Positions 5,917 through 23,504 of a DNA stretch of 23,504 bases are shown here, piece by piece. The stretch spans positions 1 to 23,504 of the IMG/VR virus record IMGVR_UViG_3300027996_000171, one strand, 5' to 3'. Both the position numbers and the translations under genes were made by a program. The notes below the pieces were generated by a model that had not been told where the DNA came from, made no database searches, and saw nothing but the letters and a program-made list of their open reading frames with translations. Origin of the DNA: a virus. Every line of letters starts with the position of its first letter. The stretch's first letter is position 1.

Positions 5917-6179
5917 TGAACTTCCTATCTGTCTTACTCAAAGCTATTATCCCGGCGGTACTCCCAACTTTTCTCTCTTGGTTTGCAAAGCAATCTGGAG
6001 CTTGGGCCAAGAGTATCGTCAATTATTTTAAAGATAGAAGTGCGAGAAAATCAGTTAAAACAAAAAAAGCAGTCAGAGAGAATATTATTAAACGAATTGA
6101 AATTGCTACAGAAAAGGAAGACCATGAAGAACTTGAAAAGCTCCATGTTGCTTTACATATCGTCGATTCTACTGACTAA
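5916..6179 (+). CDS. small membrane protein, candidate inner-membrane spanin or holin
   Basis: The product has 87 residues. The first 24 (NFLSVLLKAIIPAVLPTFLSW) form a plausible membrane segment. Residues 35-80 are highly charged (RSARKSVKTKKAVRENIIKRIE, then a Glu/Lys-rich helix) and look like a coiled coil. This N-in membrane anchor plus coiled coil is the usual design of an Rz-type inner-membrane spanin, though it is short. A lipoprotein gene starts inside it in another frame, as in Rz/Rz1 pairs. A holin is the main alternative. Translation is coupled to the upstream gene. Confidence 0.6.
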   Translation: MNFLSVLLKAIIPAVLPTFLSWFAKQSGAWAKSIVNYFKDRSARKSVKTKKAVRENIIKRIEIATEKEDHEELEKLHVALHIVDSTD

Positions 6180-6456
6180 TTGCAGCTCCAATAAAAACCT
6201 AATATTAAATAGTATCGAAAGTGAAAAACGCGAGATGTGTACAATGCTAACCTCATTCATGGTCTGCACTGACACTAGAATTACTAAGGCCCCAAAAGGC
6301 TGTTTTATGCTTAATAAATACAACCATACTTATAAATGCCCCATCCCTAGATTCCTTGGGTATCAATGTACATCAGCGGATACATATCGAAATATAGTTA
6401 ATCAGATCGACGAACTAACATTACAAAACGGAATATTAAAAAGAGAGATTGATTAA
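6124..6456 (+). CDS. lipoprotein, candidate outer-membrane spanin
   Basis: The product has 110 residues. Its N-terminus is MKNLKSS followed by a hydrophobic stretch and LLTNC, which reads as a lipoprotein signal with the lipidated Cys at residue 20. Asn just before the Cys is unusual for classical lipoboxes. The start at 6124 is chosen because the signal peptide begins there; the frame is open upstream without a signal. AGGAAG lies upstream of the ATG. The gene starts inside the preceding membrane protein gene in another frame, as Rz1 does in Rz. The mature part has further cysteines and no Pro-rich region, so it differs from typical Rz1. The tail end overlaps the convergent leftward gene by 4 nt. 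Confidence 0.65.
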   Translation: MKNLKSSMLLYISSILLTNCSSNKNLILNSIESEKREMCTMLTSFMVCTDTRITKAPKGCFMLNKYNHTYKCPIPRFLGYQCTSADTYRNIVNQIDELTLQNGILKREID

Positions 6457-6686
6457 TCCTCAATTTCATGATTCCACTCTGTAGCCCAGTGGTAGGCTTC
6501 TCCGAGTCTGACTTCTAAAGATTCGGCGTTGTCATAGTCTCCGCGCTCAAAAGTTCTAATATAGTTCCAAAGGATGAAAACTATCTCGGCTAACATCTCG
6601 GGATCTTGCTCGACTTTTTTCTTTATTCTGTCGAGAAAAATCTCATCGAATTCTTCTTGGCTTTTAAAAAAAAGTAACTTTGCCAT
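6453..6686 (-). CDS. small acidic protein (unknown), last gene of leftward operon
   Basis: The product has 77 residues beginning MAKLLFFKSQEEFDE. The ATG at 6686 is preferred to one at 6701 because it overlaps the upstream stop (TAATG) and has GGGAG 8-9 nt before it. The protein is helical, rich in Glu, Asp and aromatic residues, with no membrane segment or Zn motif. It is the last gene of the leftward replication operon and converges on the lysis genes with a 4-nt overlap of stop regions. No function can be assigned. Confidence 0.6.
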   Translation of the reverse strand: MAKLLFFKSQEEFDEIFLDRIKKKVEQDPEMLAEIVFILWNYIRTFERGDYDNAESLEVRLGEAYHWATEWNHEIED

Positions 6687-7540: not shown

Positions 7541-9486
7541 CCCTCTACTCCAATAGGGCAACCTTTTCCCCAAGTTGGAACCGTGGCCATGAGTTTTTCG
7601 AATTCTTCTACAGAACCAAAAGCCTCCGGTACTTCACAAATAATTTCATCATGAACGGTCATAATTATATGATAGCCTTCTTTTTCTACTCTTAACATAC
7701 CATCGGCCATAAAATCTCTTGCAGTAGCTTGAACAATGTTTTCCGCCAGTTTTCCGCCATAAGTTCTTTGACGTTCCCATTTTTTTGTTTTAGAGTTCGT
7801 CCCCATAAATGAAACTTGTTTTTTGACTCCAAATCTAGTTGGCTCCTCTTTAATGATTGGTTCTCTATAGGCAATCTTTCTCCCATTTGGTAAACGGCAA
7901 TAGAGAAACCCCCCTGTGTGCTTAAATTTAATCAGCCCCACTTCCGTAACTAATCCGGGATTCTCTACAGCCGCTATCGCAGCATCATTCAATGCGTACC
8001 AAAACTTGACCACTTTTGGGAATCGTTTTCTAAAACCATCTACTCCCATAGCTGCTTGAGCTTTTGTAACTGGGATACCCCAATCGTGGCAAGTATCATA
8101 AAATTTTATCTTCCCCATCTGGAAGCCACATCCTAAAATTGCGGCTTTTCCAAGCTGCCTTTCCATTGAATCTTTTTTGATAGCATCAATGGGTTTATTA
8201 TAAATAAAGGACGCCATATCTTCATAAGCCTTTCCATGTGTTTTATAAATTTGTAATCCGGTTTTCTCGTTAGCTAACCAGAATAAAACTCTCGATTCAA
8301 TTGATGCGAAGTCGGCAGCAATTAAATCTCTCCCTACAGGGGCGGTAATCATTCCGCGAAGACAGGAAGAGATCGCTCCCATAACGTCAGGATACAAATA
8401 CTTAAACAACTCATAATCATTCATCTTTAAAGTATCAATGCACTCATTGACGTCTTTAATACTCCCTCTGGGGAAATTATGAGGTTGTATCAAACGACCC
8501 GACCATCTCCCTGTCGAAGCACCATGATAAAGCATAGTCCCTCTGACTCTATTATCATTGGGGTCTGTTGCGTTCAGAAAGGTTTTAAATTTTGTTGTTG
8601 AAGATTTAGAAAGCTTCTGTCTAACTTCTAAAATCTGTCGAGCTTTTCCTTTAACCCCATCCCCTCCCAATATATCGGCAACGGTCGCGGCTTGTAGATT
8701 CGGGAGATCTGTTCCAAGCCCTGACAGGTAATCTAGTATCTTTTGTCTTTGCCCCGCAGTTTGGATTTCCCCGTCAGTTAGGTCTTGCAGCTTTTTTAAA
8801 AGCACGACACTATATCTGTCAATAAAATCTAAACATATTTTTACAAGAGGTATGTCAATATAGAGTCCTCTTAGATTAATTTTCTGATCTAATAAAAATA
8901 ATATTTGTTCGTTTTTTGAAAGCTCTGGCATTAATTCAGAAGCTAACTCTTCTGTCTCGGTATCTGTATGACAGTATTGGATTAACCGTACTAAATCTTG
9001 AGGGTCTTCATGCCATCCCCCTTCCGGTTCTTTTTTAGTTTTCTTTTTTGGTCTAGTCATCTTAAGCATAAGTCTGCGACCTTCCATGTCTTTCTGCACT
9101 GGAAGATGTAAAGCTAAAGCTAGGTTCTCTAGATTTCTCGGGAGCGATAAAGCCGCTGCTTTTGCTGCCGAACAAGTCCAACGATCTCTAGAAATAATTG
9201 GAGCTTGATACTTTTTAACCATCACGTTTTCCCAAATAGCTAATTCAAATTGGGAGTTATGGGCTTCAAAAGGCAAGACGCTATCTATAGCACTTTTGAG
9301 ATCTTCGGGAAAACCGGGGTCAACCGAAGGGACCCAAATCCCTTTAGGCCGCCCCGGTATCCTATAAGAAAGACAGAGTACGTCGGTAGTTTCATGGAGT
9401 GAATATGTCCAACCCCCCGTCTTTTTTATATCCGCTTCACTTCTAGTTTCAAAATCTATTGTAACTTTAGAGGTCAAAATCTTCAT
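7513..9486 (-). CDS. family A DNA polymerase with 3'-5' exonuclease
   Basis: A replicative polymerase of 657 residues, the usual size for phage family A enzymes. The exonuclease domain has DFE (D11, E13), AHNSQFE (about 75-81) and Y171/D175 as the three Exo motifs. The polymerase domain has motif A AADFASIESR (D392), motif B RQLGKAAILGCGFQ (R443, K447) and motif C HDE (612-614). All catalytic residues expected for polymerisation and proofreading are present. The start at 9486 puts the DFET motif close to the N-terminus as in relatives; the open frame extends 29 codons further upstream inside the ssDNA-binding protein gene. The gene overlaps the end of that gene by about 20 nt, so the two are coupled. 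Confidence 0.95.
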   Translation of the reverse strand: MKILTSKVTIDFETRSEADIKKTGGWTYSLHETTDVLCLSYRIPGRPKGIWVPSVDPGFPEDLKSAIDSVLPFEAHNSQFELAIWENVMVKKYQAPIISRDRWTCSAAKAAALSLPRNLENLALALHLPVQKDMEGRRLMLKMTRPKKKTKKEPEGGWHEDPQDLVRLIQYCHTDTETEELASELMPELSKNEQILFLLDQKINLRGLYIDIPLVKICLDFIDRYSVVLLKKLQDLTDGEIQTAGQRQKILDYLSGLGTDLPNLQAATVADILGGDGVKGKARQILEVRQKLSKSSTTKFKTFLNATDPNDNRVRGTMLYHGASTGRWSGRLIQPHNFPRGSIKDVNECIDTLKMNDYELFKYLYPDVMGAISSCLRGMITAPVGRDLIAADFASIESRVLFWLANEKTGLQIYKTHGKAYEDMASFIYNKPIDAIKKDSMERQLGKAAILGCGFQMGKIKFYDTCHDWGIPVTKAQAAMGVDGFRKRFPKVVKFWYALNDAAIAAVENPGLVTEVGLIKFKHTGGFLYCRLPNGRKIAYREPIIKEEPTRFGVKKQVSFMGTNSKTKKWERQRTYGGKLAENIVQATARDFMADGMLRVEKEGYHIIMTVHDEIICEVPEAFGSVEEFEKLMATVPTWGKGCPIGVEGWRGKRFKK

Positions 9487-12311: not shown

Positions 12312-13772
12312 TTAGTCTCCCATTATAGTTTTGATATTCCCATCTTTCTTAAGATGGCTTCTTAAAATCTTTTCTGTTAGAGAATTCAGTAAAACTAAAT
12401 ACTCACAAAGACAAGAATAGTCTTGGCCTATCCGGTGGATTCGATCAAACGCTTGATCGTTATTTCCCGGAGTCCACGAAGGTTCTACGTTGATAACATA
12501 ACTAGATGCTGTCAATGTAAGACCTTCATGGGCCGCACTAGAACCAAGAAAAATTCTTGTGTTTATATCAGCTTGGAAAATATCTACTAGACCCTGTCTT
12601 GATCCCTTAGGAGTAGACCCATCTATTTTTACCAAACCGAATTCTTTTAATTCTTCTTCTAAAATATCTATGCAATCTTTATGGTGCGCAAAAACTACAA
12701 TCTTTTTATGTCCACCATCCAACTGTTCTCTAATATAATCCGCAGCGATTGGAGCTATCTTTTCGCCTAGCTCTCTCCTCATCTCCGATAAACCCTCGTA
12801 GCTTACTGGGATGTTCCCGCCAACGATTGCTTTATAGTCAAATTGGTTCATACTCTCTACCAATCTATCGCAATCCGGGTCCGAGTTAAGATAAGTAATT
12901 ACTACATTCTTTCTCGGCAGATCTTTTAGGACGTTCTTTTTTAGTCTCCTAATCATAAAAGTGGATCTCAACCTATTAGATAAATCTTTTAAGTTAGAAG
13001 CTCCTCTAAAATCGGGGCGTCCCGCAGAATCATAATGTCCCCCACAATATTTAAAGCCGTAGGTTTCTTCGCTCATTAGTGTGTCGCCTTTCATCAGAGC
13101 GACCGGACAGAGAGCTGTTATGATCCCATATAATTCAATTGGCCTATTTGGTGAAGGGGTCCCAGTTAAAGCTAAAACATGTCTAACTTTTTTAAGAACT
13201 CCCTTTACTTTCCCTCCGCCAAAGACTGCTTTTGTTCTTTTAGCTTTTGGGTTTTTAAGTTTATGGGCCTCATCAACTATTAAATAATAAAAACTTTTTC
13301 GACTAAACTTGTCAAATAAAATTTTGTTTGAAAACAAATTAAATGAGATAATGTAACAATCTACATCGCTTAACTCGTCGCGTCCCGTATTAATTAATTG
13401 ATAGGATAATTTTTTCATACTCCATCTTTCAAAATGTACTTTCCAATTCATCATTAAAGAGGCAGGGCAAATGATCAAAATTGGGAATCCCGGTCTTAAA
13501 TTTGTCACGCCGATAGCTTGCACAGTCTTGCCTAAACCCGGCTCATCGCCTATGAGAGTGTGTATAAAAGGATTATAGACCGCAAACTCTATTCCTGCTT
13601 TTTGGTAGGGTAGGTATTCTAGACCTTCCGGGCTCGGAATTTCTAAATCTGAGTCCGTCGCGTATGACATCTCAATACGTTCCGGGTCATAAATTATTTC
13701 GTTATTTGGTTTCATAGTTAAGGTATGAGGATAATTGGATATGAGCGATTTTGTCAAAATATATTTTGACAT
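12312..13772 (-). CDS. SNF2-family DEAD/DEAH-box helicase
   Basis: A superfamily 2 ATPase of up to 486 residues. Motifs run in order: YQKAGIEF (Q-motif region, about 56-63), GDEPGLGKT (Walker A, 75-83), VDEAHKLKNP (DEAH, 167-170), LTGTPSPN (motif III), RLKKNVLKDLPRK, then VVFAHHKD, DGST, SSAAHEGLTLT and the final motif QAFDRIHRIGQ. This is the compact SNF2 helicase typical of phage replication modules, likely remodelling or translocating on DNA. Start uncertain: the ATG at 13772 is inside a 20-bp palindrome that also holds promoter elements, and none of the candidate starts (13772, 13715, 13670) has a clear ribosome binding site. It is the first gene of the leftward operon. Confidence 0.9.
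   Translation of the reverse strand: MSKYILTKSLISNYPHTLTMKPNNEIIYDPERIEMSYATDSDLEIPSPEGLEYLPYQKAGIEFAVYNPFIHTLIGDEPGLGKTVQAIGVTNLRPGFPILIICPASLMMNWKVHFERWSMKKLSYQLINTGRDELSDVDCYIISFNLFSNKILFDKFSRKSFYYLIVDEAHKLKNPKAKRTKAVFGGGKVKGVLKKVRHVLALTGTPSPNRPIELYGIITALCPVALMKGDTLMSEETYGFKYCGGHYDSAGRPDFRGASNLKDLSNRLRSTFMIRRLKKNVLKDLPRKNVVITYLNSDPDCDRLVESMNQFDYKAIVGGNIPVSYEGLSEMRRELGEKIAPIAADYIREQLDGGHKKIVVFAHHKDCIDILEEELKEFGLVKIDGSTPKGSRQGLVDIFQADINTRIFLGSSAAHEGLTLTASSYVINVEPSWTPGNNDQAFDRIHRIGQDYSCLCEYLVLLNSLTEKILRSHLKKDGNIKTIMGD
13730..13757 (-). promoter_or_regulatory. possible leftward promoter
   Basis: On the minus strand TTGACA (13757-13752) is the other arm of the palindrome. A weak -10 (TATCCT, 4 of 6) follows at 18 nt. 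If this is used, the SNF2 transcript would start near 13720 and the ATG at 13715 would be almost leaderless. The -10 is poor, so this is a guess. Confidence 0.3.
13752..13771. promoter_or_regulatory. perfect 20-bp palindrome, candidate operator
   Basis: The sequence TGTCAAAATA and its exact reverse complement form an uninterrupted 20-bp palindrome. It contains TTGACA on both strands and overlaps the upstream-most start codon of the SNF2 gene. It lies between the two divergent replication operons, next to a gene for a Cro-like protein. Binding there would affect promoters in both directions. Confidence 0.6.
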
Positions 13773-13793
13773 AAAGTATAATTTAACTTTAAT
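13766..13793 (+). promoter_or_regulatory. rightward promoter of the cro-like/primase operon
   Basis: TTGACA (13766-13771) is perfect and TTTAAT (13788-13793) matches the -10 consensus at 5 of 6 positions, with a 16-nt spacer. Transcription should start near 13800, about 128 nt before the cro-like gene. The -35 box is one arm of the 20-bp palindrome, so a bound repressor would block it. Confidence 0.6.
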
Positions 13794-13800
13794 ATTTTAT

Positions 13801-13915
13801 TACAGTTTTTGATTAAGCTCAGTTGTTCCCTTTTTTTCCTTTGTGAGGGGGAGCAATGTCTCTTTAAAGTTTGGGGGGGGTCGGTTTACCACCAGTTCCG
13901 GCCCCCCTTTTTAAT
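13801..13915 (+). ncRNA. leader RNA or small RNA ending at a terminator
   Basis: Between the promoter and the cro-like gene lies a leader of about 110 nt. A first hairpin pairs 13822-13830 with 13849-13857 (9 pairs, two of them G-U) and would mask GAGGGGGAG and an ATG at 13856, which opens a 3-codon frame (Met-Ser-Leu-stop). A strong terminator follows. The RNA may be a discrete small RNA or an attenuator leader. Confidence 0.4.
13875..13912 (+). terminator. intrinsic terminator inside the leader
   Basis: GGGGGGTCGG pairs with CCGGCCCCCC (10 pairs, one G-U) across a 13-nt loop and is followed by TTTTT. This is a very stable rho-independent terminator located between the promoter and the first gene it would serve, 15 nt before the cro-like start codon. 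Confidence 0.75.
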
Positions 13916-13927
13916 TAGGAAACAAAA

Positions 13928-14128
13928 ATGAACATAGTAGAATACATTGAAGCAATGGGGGTCGATAGGGTCTCTCTGCTCGCAGACGTTACAAGGCAAA
14001 CAGTTTACAATTGGAAGGCTTTGAAGATCTGCCCGCAACCTGAAAACGCCTTTATTCTTATTATAGAGAGTAGAGGAATTTTAACTTGGGAATCTATCTA
14101 TCAACCTTATTTCGATCTGAATCATTAA
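13928..14128 (+). CDS. Cro-like helix-turn-helix regulator
   Basis: The product has 66 residues. SLLADVTRQTVYNWKALKICPQPENAFILI reads as a helix-turn-helix followed by the dimer helix of the Cro/YdaS type, where the VYNWK motif marks the recognition helix (about 23-30). The C-terminal WESIYQPYF resembles the LRPDLF end of that family. AGGAA lies 7 nt before the ATG. It is the first gene of the rightward operon and lies beside a 20-bp palindrome between divergent promoters, the expected site for such a small dimeric regulator. No larger cI-type repressor is in the window. Confidence 0.75.
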   Translation: MNIVEYIEAMGVDRVSLLADVTRQTVYNWKALKICPQPENAFILIIESRGILTWESIYQPYFDLNH

Positions 14129-21171: not shown

Positions 21172-21368
21172 TAGTTCGAAAAGAAGAAGGGAAGTACATT
21201 ATGACGCATATTGTAGGATGTATCCTACATTATGATGCATATTATCAGGTCATTCGGATACATACTTATCCCGATAATAGGCTTAATAATTTTAATTCAT
21301 ATCCCGATAATAGGTTTAATAATTTTAATTCATATCCCGATAATAGGTTTAATAATTTTAACAATTAG
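21168..21368 (+). CDS. small protein with three 11-residue repeats
   Basis: The product has 66 residues. The N-terminal half (MIVRKEEGKYIMTHIVGC...) is unremarkable. The C-terminal half is three copies of YPDNRxNNFNS, encoded by 33-bp direct repeats. GGAGTGGAGG precedes the ATG, which overlaps the upstream stop. Because the repeats are nearly identical in DNA, they may serve as DNA or RNA elements and the protein may be secondary. Confidence 0.5.
   Translation: MIVRKEEGKYIMTHIVGCILHYDAYYQVIRIHTYPDNRLNNFNSYPDNRFNNFNSYPDNRFNNFNN
21195..21243. repeat. 31-bp spaced direct repeat around a perfect hairpin
   Basis: TACATTATGAYGCATATT occurs at 21195-21212 and 21226-21243 with one mismatch. Between and across them TGTAGGAT and ATCCTACA form an 8-bp inverted repeat with a 2-nt loop (21212-21229). 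It lies just before the 33-bp repeats. Confidence 0.7.
21267..21365 (+). repeat. three 33-bp tandem direct repeats
   Basis: Three back-to-back units begin at 21267, 21300 and 21333. The first two differ at one position and the last differs only at its end. The unit starts TATCCCGATAATAGG and ends in an AT-rich half. No spacers separate the units, so this is not a CRISPR array. It keeps the reading frame (11 codons per unit). Confidence 0.9.
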
Positions 21369-21820: not shown

Positions 21821-22315
21821 ATGAGAAAAAACGAAATGAAGTTTTTATCGGATCTGAAAAAGAGCTTCAAACGACATGGAGCTTGGTTCTATAAAATTCC
21901 TGACACGCCTACTAGTTTAAGATTCACTCCGGCCAAACCATTCGATGTAGTGCTATGTGTCGAGGGAGCTTTCGTTTCGATGGAAGGCAAATGGTTAGAT
22001 TGGACCGATAAGAAAGGCTATGCCTTCAAGTATGATGACCTGAGAGACTCACAAAAACTGGGTTTACAGCACATCGAAGACCATAAGGGTATATCGTATG
22101 TCACTTTAGGATTACGAGCAGCGAGAGGCGATGTGAGGGCCTTATTTTGGGAGCATAAAGATTTCAAACAGTTGTGTGAAGATAATAACGGTCGGATATC
22201 TCGTGAGATGCTAGAACAAACCCCCTTTATTCCCTGCGTTGATAAGAAATACGATCTTAGTCAGATAATTTCAGATATAAAATCAAATACTTTCTTTCAA
22301 AACCTAATGAGATAG
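21821..22315 (+). CDS. RecU-like PD-(D/E)XK nuclease
   Basis: The product has 164 residues. TPAKPFDVVLCVEGAFVSMEGKWLDW matches the RecU/penicillin-binding-factor pattern kpfDfig...fiafEaK, with D42 and the ExK pair E55/K57 as metal-binding catalytic residues. LRDSQKLGLQHIEDHKGISYVTLGL fits the following HQ...L...G helix-strand part of RecU. The likely role is Holliday-junction resolution or debranching of phage DNA. The start has no recognisable ribosome binding site; ATG at 21836 is a possible alternative. It follows the repeat-rich non-coding region. Confidence 0.75.
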   Translation: MRKNEMKFLSDLKKSFKRHGAWFYKIPDTPTSLRFTPAKPFDVVLCVEGAFVSMEGKWLDWTDKKGYAFKYDDLRDSQKLGLQHIEDHKGISYVTLGLRAARGDVRALFWEHKDFKQLCEDNNGRISREMLEQTPFIPCVDKKYDLSQIISDIKSNTFFQNLMR

Positions 22316-22316
22316 T

Positions 22317-22416
22317 ACACACTAAGTAGATGAGAGGTTTTACGCACTAGGGCCTTTCGCATCCGGGGGAGTGTTACCAAGGATGGTAATTACTTCCCCA
22401 TCTTAACTTAGTGTGT
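22317..22416 (+). ncRNA. candidate branched structured RNA
   Basis: A perfect 11-bp outer stem (22317-22327 with 22406-22416) is extended by AGATG/CATCT (22328-22332 with 22399-22403) over a 2-nt bulge. Inside are two hairpins: GAGAGG/CCTTTC (about 22332-22337 with 22353-22358) and GGGGGAGTGTTACC with GGTAATTACTTCCCC (22365-22378 with 22385-22399). GGATG (22381-22385) could also pair with CATCC (22360-22364) as a pseudoknot. It fits no riboswitch or ribozyme consensus that I know. It ends 11 nt before the next start codon. Confidence 0.5.
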
Positions 22417-22427
22417 TATAAATTCTT

Positions 22428-23141
22428 ATGGCGATGAAATTTAAAAACAATTTTAAATCCGAGATGCAGAGATTAGCTAACACGCTTGGTAAAGACGCTC
22501 CCCGAATTATTTATAAAGCGGAAGCAATAACTCTTAAAAAACTAGGGATATCTATAAGAGCGGAAGTGACGAAGATTGCAAGAAAGAAGCTAGGTCTTCA
22601 AAAAGAACCCGCCGGGACTAAGATTTCTGCGGATCAATTTAAAAAGGAATTCACGCGGATTGAGATGCACATACCTTCTAAAGGTAAAGCGCATATGGCC
22701 GTTATTGTTAAAGGAAAATCTGTACCGATGGCCCGCTTCTTATCTTCACCTAAGAAAATATTATCCCAGAAAGGAATCAAACCTCGTAGAAGAAAAAAAG
22801 TAGTAGTTGAAGTGTTTAAAGGGAAGAAGAAAACTCTTGCTTCGACGACGTCAAAAACGCCTTTTCTCTTTAGGGATGAAAATGGGAAGATTCAAGTCGG
22901 AAAAAGACATTCAACAGGAGTAAGAAAGAGAAGAAAAGATGGTCAATGGACTGATGTTTATGTCAGAAATCTAACTGGTGCTTCTGTCGCAACTTTTCTC
23001 CGAACTCTTGGTATAAAAAAAGAAATAGAAACTAAAATGAAAGTTAGATTTCAAAATCAATTTATAAAAAGGTTTCGTTTCTTTGCACAAGCTGAAATAA
23101 AAAGACGGTTGAAAGCGGGCTTGGTTTCTACATTCAAATAA
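22428..23141 (+). CDS. basic protein resembling minor tail protein Z
   Basis: The product has 237 residues, strongly basic (many Lys/Arg). The pattern KGKSVPMARFLSSPK, KGIKPRRRKKVVVEVFKGKKK, TPFLFRDENGKIQVGKRHSTG, DVYVRNLTGASVATFL follows the layout of prophage minor tail protein Z (GPZ) proteins: an N-terminal helical part, ARF, a V-V-F-K-G block, an R-rich insert and a P-I/V-x-x-L-x-G-x-S-V segment. If right, late structural genes resume here. It lacks a ribosome binding site and starts 11 nt after the structured RNA candidate. A nucleic-acid-binding role is the alternative because of its charge. Confidence 0.5.
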   Translation: MAMKFKNNFKSEMQRLANTLGKDAPRIIYKAEAITLKKLGISIRAEVTKIARKKLGLQKEPAGTKISADQFKKEFTRIEMHIPSKGKAHMAVIVKGKSVPMARFLSSPKKILSQKGIKPRRRKKVVVEVFKGKKKTLASTTSKTPFLFRDENGKIQVGKRHSTGVRKRRKDGQWTDVYVRNLTGASVATFLRTLGIKKEIETKMKVRFQNQFIKRFRFFAQAEIKRRLKAGLVSTFK

Positions 23142-23378: not shown

Positions 23379-23436
23379 AAAAAAAAAAATTTCAAAACAA
23401 AAAAATTTCAAAACAAAAAAAATTTCAAAACAAAAA
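23379..23436. repeat. tandem A-rich repeat (AAATTTCAAAACAAAA)
   Basis: Three successive copies of A(7-11)TTTCAAAAC differ mainly in the length of their A-tract. Such tracts bend DNA and vary easily. Confidence 0.75.
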
Positions 23437-23463
23437 GTAATAAAATCAAGTACTTATACTAAA

Positions 23464-23504
23464 AGATTCAAGATTCAAGATTCAAGATTCAAGATTCAAG
23501 ATTC
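23464..23504. repeat. heptanucleotide tandem repeat AGATTCA running off the window
   Basis: AGATTCA is repeated almost six times without a mismatch and continues to the last base. The true length is unknown. Confidence 0.9.

Follow-up and report, generated by a model that had tools for sequence, protein, structure and literature searches.

What is the role of a 100-nt stretch of self-complementary DNA that separates two genes in a 23,504-base virus record (the window; the whole stretch of DNA that was analysed), and is its fold more than a product of chance? The original prediction named a cis-acting regulator or a discrete phage RNA as candidate roles, and both are possible. We examined the position, fold, stability and strand preference of the element, compared it with known classes of RNA and DNA elements, and searched for relatives.

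Position and fold of the element

The element occupies positions 22317–22416 on the plus strand, as originally predicted. The upstream gene (21821–22315, plus strand) encodes a RecU-like Holliday-junction resolvase (phrog_843, E 0.0011), whose stretch RF..AKPFD...MExK is shared with its only homologue, found in the related phage G001 described below, and was read by us as a PD-(D/E)xK-type motif. The downstream gene (22428–23141, plus strand) encodes a basic protein of 237 amino acids (gp237), for which the best hint is a weak one, namely tail-completion/Neck1 (phrog_27, E 0.0045). Structure predictions of gp237 and of the RecU-like protein were of too low quality to be used. Since the outer stem of the element begins 1 nt past the end of the RecU-like stop codon (22315) and ends 11 nt upstream of the gp237 ATG (22428), the element constitutes essentially the whole spacer.

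The gene order in the window runs from polymerase A, primase and other replication-type genes to the RecU-like gene, the element and gp237, and the DNA past gp237 is A-rich and repetitive to the end of the contig. In the terminal part (23379–23504), A-rich repeats of 16/17 bp are accompanied by six AAGATTC repeats, and these are the probable cause of the assembly break at that point. A tandem repeat with a 33-bp unit was also found at 21267–21361; its nearly three copies are 98% alike and close a small ORF with repeats of 11 residues (YPDNRFNNFNS).

The minimum free energy (MFE) fold of the plus strand as RNA was a three-way junction composed of stems P1 (11 + 4 bp), P2 (11 bp) and P3 (15 bp), with six G-U pairs in all. 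When read from 5' to 3' in structural pieces, the element is ACACACTAAGT AGAT GAGAGGTTTTA CGCAC TAGGGCCTTTC GCATCC GGGGGAGTGTTACCA AGGA TGGTAATTACTTCCCC ATCT TA ACTTAGTGTGT. The 5' arm of P1 (22317–22327) forms 11 perfect pairs with the 3' arm (22406–22416), confirming the outer stem as it had been described. This stem had further been thought to extend to 16 bp; the extension exists, but the total is 11 + 4 = 15 bp, as 22328–22331 pair with 22400–22403 across a 2-nt UA bulge (22404–22405), with pair probabilities of only 0.60–0.77. Two inner hairpins had likewise been correctly recognized, but with 6 and 13–14 pairs, whereas the fold contains a P2 hairpin (22332–22358) of 11 pairs, four of them G-U, with the loop CGCAC (22343–22347), and a P3 hairpin (22365–22399) of 15 pairs, with one bulge at 22390 and the loop AGGA (22380–22383). 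P2 forms on the plus strand only. The two hairpins are connected by the single-stranded junction GCATCC (22359–22364).

A 5-bp pseudoknot between CATCC (22360–22364) and GGATG (22381–22385) had also been suggested. We rejected such an H-type pseudoknot on geometric grounds, as CATCC directly adjoins P3 and GGATG overlaps two P3 pairs, which would have to break. Because a linker of 0 nt would need to span approximately 13 bp, the pairing appears sterically excluded unless P3 opens.

The three-way junction was retained in longer transcripts, up to the complete two-gene message, and the mean pair probabilities within the entire RecU-gp237 transcript were 0.90 for P1, 0.98 for P2 and 0.94 for P3. 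On the 5' strand P1 runs directly into P2, so that coaxial stacking of the two could give a helix some 26 bp long.

Stability and strand preference

The folding energy of the element was compared with that of shuffled controls, and it proved to be far beyond chance. The MFE was -47.1 kcal/mol against a shuffled mean of about -24.0 kcal/mol (z -7.15), and none of 2000 dinucleotide shuffles reached this value (S.D. 3.26, lowest -41.2). Each inner hairpin also surpassed its own shuffles, with z -3.2 for P2 and z -4.1 for P3. The background distribution, determined from 1338 windows of 100 nt on both strands, had a mean z of -0.14 and an S.D. of 1.13, and the element is an outlier against it, although its frame was picked to fit. 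The 11-bp inverted repeat alone is unremarkable, as two such repeats were present in the window and 1.06 were found per shuffled window, or about one by chance; it is the entire fold that is exceptional. Among the closed multibranch elements of at most 52% GC in 1.54 Mb of fetched phage DNA, this element had the lowest energy per base.

The possibility that the element is a functionless by-product, a stable intergenic fold left, for example, by an insertion or rearrangement and kept by chance in one phage, has to be judged against these values. We consider it unlikely, since a z of -7.15 with no shuffle as low, the leading place among structures of its architecture with at most 52% GC in the phage DNA screened, and the exact fit to the spacer all speak against it. 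It would, on the other hand, agree with the presence of further very stable folds in coding DNA of the same window and with the searches described below, where no homologue was found and no conservation could be shown.

Several other structures were noted during this work. At 12420–12580, the plus strand, which is antisense to a helicase gene (12312–13772, minus strand), forms a very stable fold with a z of about -6 on the antisense strand. A stable local mRNA fold within the DNA polymerase gene (9255–9400, minus strand) has a z of about -5 and may be due to chance. Two strong hairpins (13819–13912, plus strand, z -3.2) separate the divergent helicase gene from a small gene with its start at 13928. 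Of these hairpins, the second, GGGGGGGGTCGG...CCGGCCCCCC, is followed by TTTTT and ends about 20 nt before the ATG at 13928, and a promoter-like TTGACA-18-TAATAT is located at 13766–13795; the region has the appearance of an attenuator or terminator within the leader of the primase-containing operon. In a distant phage (locus L035, 1683–1802, plus strand), a perfect inverted repeat of 12 bp (ACACGGGAAGTG) closes another branched structure, with an energy per base nearly as low as that of the element and no sequence similarity to it that we could see.

The minus strand of the element folded less well than the plus strand (-33.1 kcal/mol, z -3.56 vs. z -7.15), because the six G-U pairs turn into mismatches. 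Isolated P2 had an energy of -9.6 kcal/mol on the plus strand and -0.7 kcal/mol on the minus strand, where it was lost, and the corresponding values for P3 were -20.1 and -15.3 kcal/mol. When folded as single-stranded DNA, either strand was better than its shuffles but weaker than the RNA (z -4.9 and -4.1). The asymmetry favors a sense-strand RNA over a plain, symmetric DNA inverted repeat; it is an argument rather than a proof, since a fold that was chosen on one strand tends to score better on that strand.

These results bear on the alternative that the element acts at the DNA level, as a branched or cruciform hairpin, a recombination or replication site, or a small insert with inverted ends. 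The perfect 11-bp terminal inverted repeat, the better-than-shuffled folding of both DNA strands, the proximity of a gene of the RecU-like family, which acts on branched DNA, and the lack of the element in its nearest relative are all in line with such a role. However, P2 with its four G-U pairs forms only as plus-strand RNA, the element is present as a single copy in the window with no visible flanking target duplication, and nothing similar was detected in phages or plasmids. We regard a DNA-level role as improbable. For the same reasons, together with the strand asymmetry, there was little support for a simple MITE-like mobile element, which had been raised as an alternative, and this candidate was rejected.

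Comparison with known classes and search for relatives

The original prediction that the element corresponds to no known riboswitch, ribozyme or tRNA was borne out. At E ≤ 1, an Rfam search of the whole window left the element without a match, and a tRNA scan was negative. When the element was searched against Rfam at E ≤ 10, the matches were mir-32 (12.1 of 70 bits) and part of a fluoride motif (8.4 of 34 bits), both falling far short of the threshold and attributable to chance. The element resembles the candidate motifs that entered Rfam from comparative genomics in being intergenic, highly structured and of unknown function, but those motifs are families with covariation and the element is one sequence without relatives.

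Phage T7 has RNase III processing hairpins between the genes of its message. Like these sites, the element is a long and stable structure of the sense strand that fills the spacer separating two phage genes of the same orientation, with co-transcription assumed in the present case. The T7 sites are, however, single irregular hairpins with an internal loop, whereas the element, at 100 nt, has a three-way junction from which two inner hairpins extend. We put forward the hypothesis that the element works like a T7 RNase III site, not the claim that it is one.

Intergenic hammerheads flanking prophage genes have been proposed to split phage transcripts (PMC3088659). In common with them, the element lies between phage genes and has three stems meeting at a junction, with the outer stem as the closing one (type I layout), and it has GATGA at the place of the core GANGA. 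A hammerhead was nevertheless rejected, as the core CUGANGA / GAAA / UH is replaced by UAGAUGA, with UA for CU, and by GCAUCC in the position of GAAA, between stems II and III; there are also extra bases before the outer stem, and no Rfam hammerhead match was obtained up to E 10. The location of a structured RNA directly 5' of a basic protein gene is reminiscent of type III toxin-antitoxin systems, in which ToxI lies upstream of ToxN. This class was rejected too, because there are no tandem RNA repeats and no terminator before the gene, and gp237 had no ToxN match in Pfam or PADLOC. Finally, an intrinsic terminator, which would be a G+C-rich hairpin with a T-run directly behind it, was dismissed, as there is no terminator-like site at the element and P1 is followed by TATAAATTCTTATGG. 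A promoter-like site was not found at the element either.

The nearest phage found was G001 (IMGVR_UViG_3300023049_000127, 43,856 bp), with 54% identity in primase, 51% in polymerase and 43% in the RecU-like protein, and with the same layout of the early genes. A covariance model, built from the single sequence of the element, gave no match above chance in G001 with the filters off. The element is thus absent from its nearest relative, and a recent gain is possible. The RecU gene of G001 is followed by a 114-aa gene, a 160-aa gene, the small and large terminase subunits, and portal; by eye, we infer that the 114-aa and 160-aa genes are ligase-like and Rrf2-like, respectively. This resemblance to transcription regulators of the Rrf2 family, as judged by eye, concerns the protein encoded between RecU and terminase at 25051–25530 of G001 (6051–6530 of locus L083, minus strand).

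In 48 further phage records and 76 loci, the covariance model likewise found nothing. In all, it was run on 50 phage records and on loci totalling 1.3 Mb and detected only the element itself, and its minus-strand match in the window was the element's own place read backwards. Similarly, blastn of the element against phages and plasmids gave nothing down to E 10. A polymerase profile retrieved 76 loci from viral contigs, of which only G001 exceeded 43% identity, and two-sequence profiles of primase and RecU yielded G001 again and nothing else. No relatives emerged from single-protein scans of viral contigs with gp237, RecU and primase, or from polymerase and primase scans of genome contigs. A pattern scan of IMG/VR viral contigs for the junction strands produced 19 matches, none of which folded alike or fitted the covariance model, and a stricter second pattern scan of viral contigs produced none. 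The empty searches mean only that there is no copy close enough to be seen in these collections.

Possible role of the element

The absence of terminator-like and promoter-like sites at the element makes a read-through mRNA, with the element as a folded spacer, the simplest state. Our preferred but tentative interpretation, the best supported of those considered and held with less than even confidence, is that the element is a cis-acting intercistronic structure of a bicistronic mRNA, encoding first the RecU-like protein and then gp237, and that it takes part in the processing or stability of this message. The fit of the fold to the spacer, its stability within the full two-gene transcript and the preference for the sense strand speak for this reading, as does the proposal that intergenic hammerheads divide phage transcripts. 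The two genes would be read through onto one mRNA, in which the P1/P2 stack of about 26 bp could become a substrate for a double-strand endonuclease of the RNase III type. RNase III needs roughly 20 bp of helix, and the modelled helix lengths can exceed this need, which is a point for processing. Through cleavage, or through the stable structure itself, the two messages would then be separated or protected: a structure retained at the 3' end of the RecU mRNA may block an exonuclease arriving from the 3' side, and the gp237 mRNA would be left with a short AU-rich leader without a Shine-Dalgarno sequence. The outcome would be RecU and gp237 messages that are separated or that differ in stability. 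The lack of a homologue, the lack of the element in G001, and the single-hairpin form of the T7 sites are points against processing, and the present evidence is compatible with cleavage, mere protection or the binding of a regulator alike.

A cis-acting regulator of gp237, or of RecU, is a somewhat doubtful alternative. According to it, the junction would bind a protein or a small molecule and thereby alter how accessible the gp237 start is, or how ribosomes re-initiate once they have reached the RecU stop. The element lies immediately 5' of a start codon without a Shine-Dalgarno sequence, its three-way junction has an unpaired GCATCC strand, and GAT at 22329–22331 has alternative partners (pair probability 0.60–0.77). 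The lack of a Shine-Dalgarno sequence before the ATG at 22428, which had been pointed out, is real but weak as evidence, as about one-third of the plausible genes in the window also lack one when inspected by eye. In the predicted fold, moreover, the final codons of RecU pair with the gp237 ATG. Such a pairing would be an appealing means of coupling, but it was equalled by 18% of the shuffled flanks, so that occlusion of the start codon is not above chance. There was also no riboswitch match in Rfam and no visible expression platform, with neither a terminator nor a Shine-Dalgarno sequence to hide. The earlier interpretation is thus supported in part: the stable sense-strand RNA structure stands and had been outlined well, the pseudoknot does not, and the start-codon argument carries little weight.

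A compact, closed domain of strong stability with both ends within P1 would also suit a discrete small phage RNA that acts in trans, whether it is cut out of the message or transcribed from a promoter of its own. We find this quite unlikely, as the element has neither a promoter-like nor a terminator-like site, and no homologues were found that would reveal a conserved single-stranded region for target pairing. Very improbable, in our judgement, is a new class of phage RNA in which a compact three-way junction, fitted exactly between the resolvase gene and its downstream neighbor, would set the two messages apart or balance them by being cleaved or bound, and would possibly be recognized by the RecU-like nuclease for branched nucleic acids, which would in this way regulate its own message.

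The element is a real, unusually stable orphan structure and a candidate from a single sequence, in a phage lineage known here from two records only, and at present it serves chiefly as a starting point for metagenome searches to come. If it is real and functional as an RNA, it would represent an RNA domain with no counterpart in Rfam, and a branched form of the intercistronic structures that tailor the polycistronic messages of phages.
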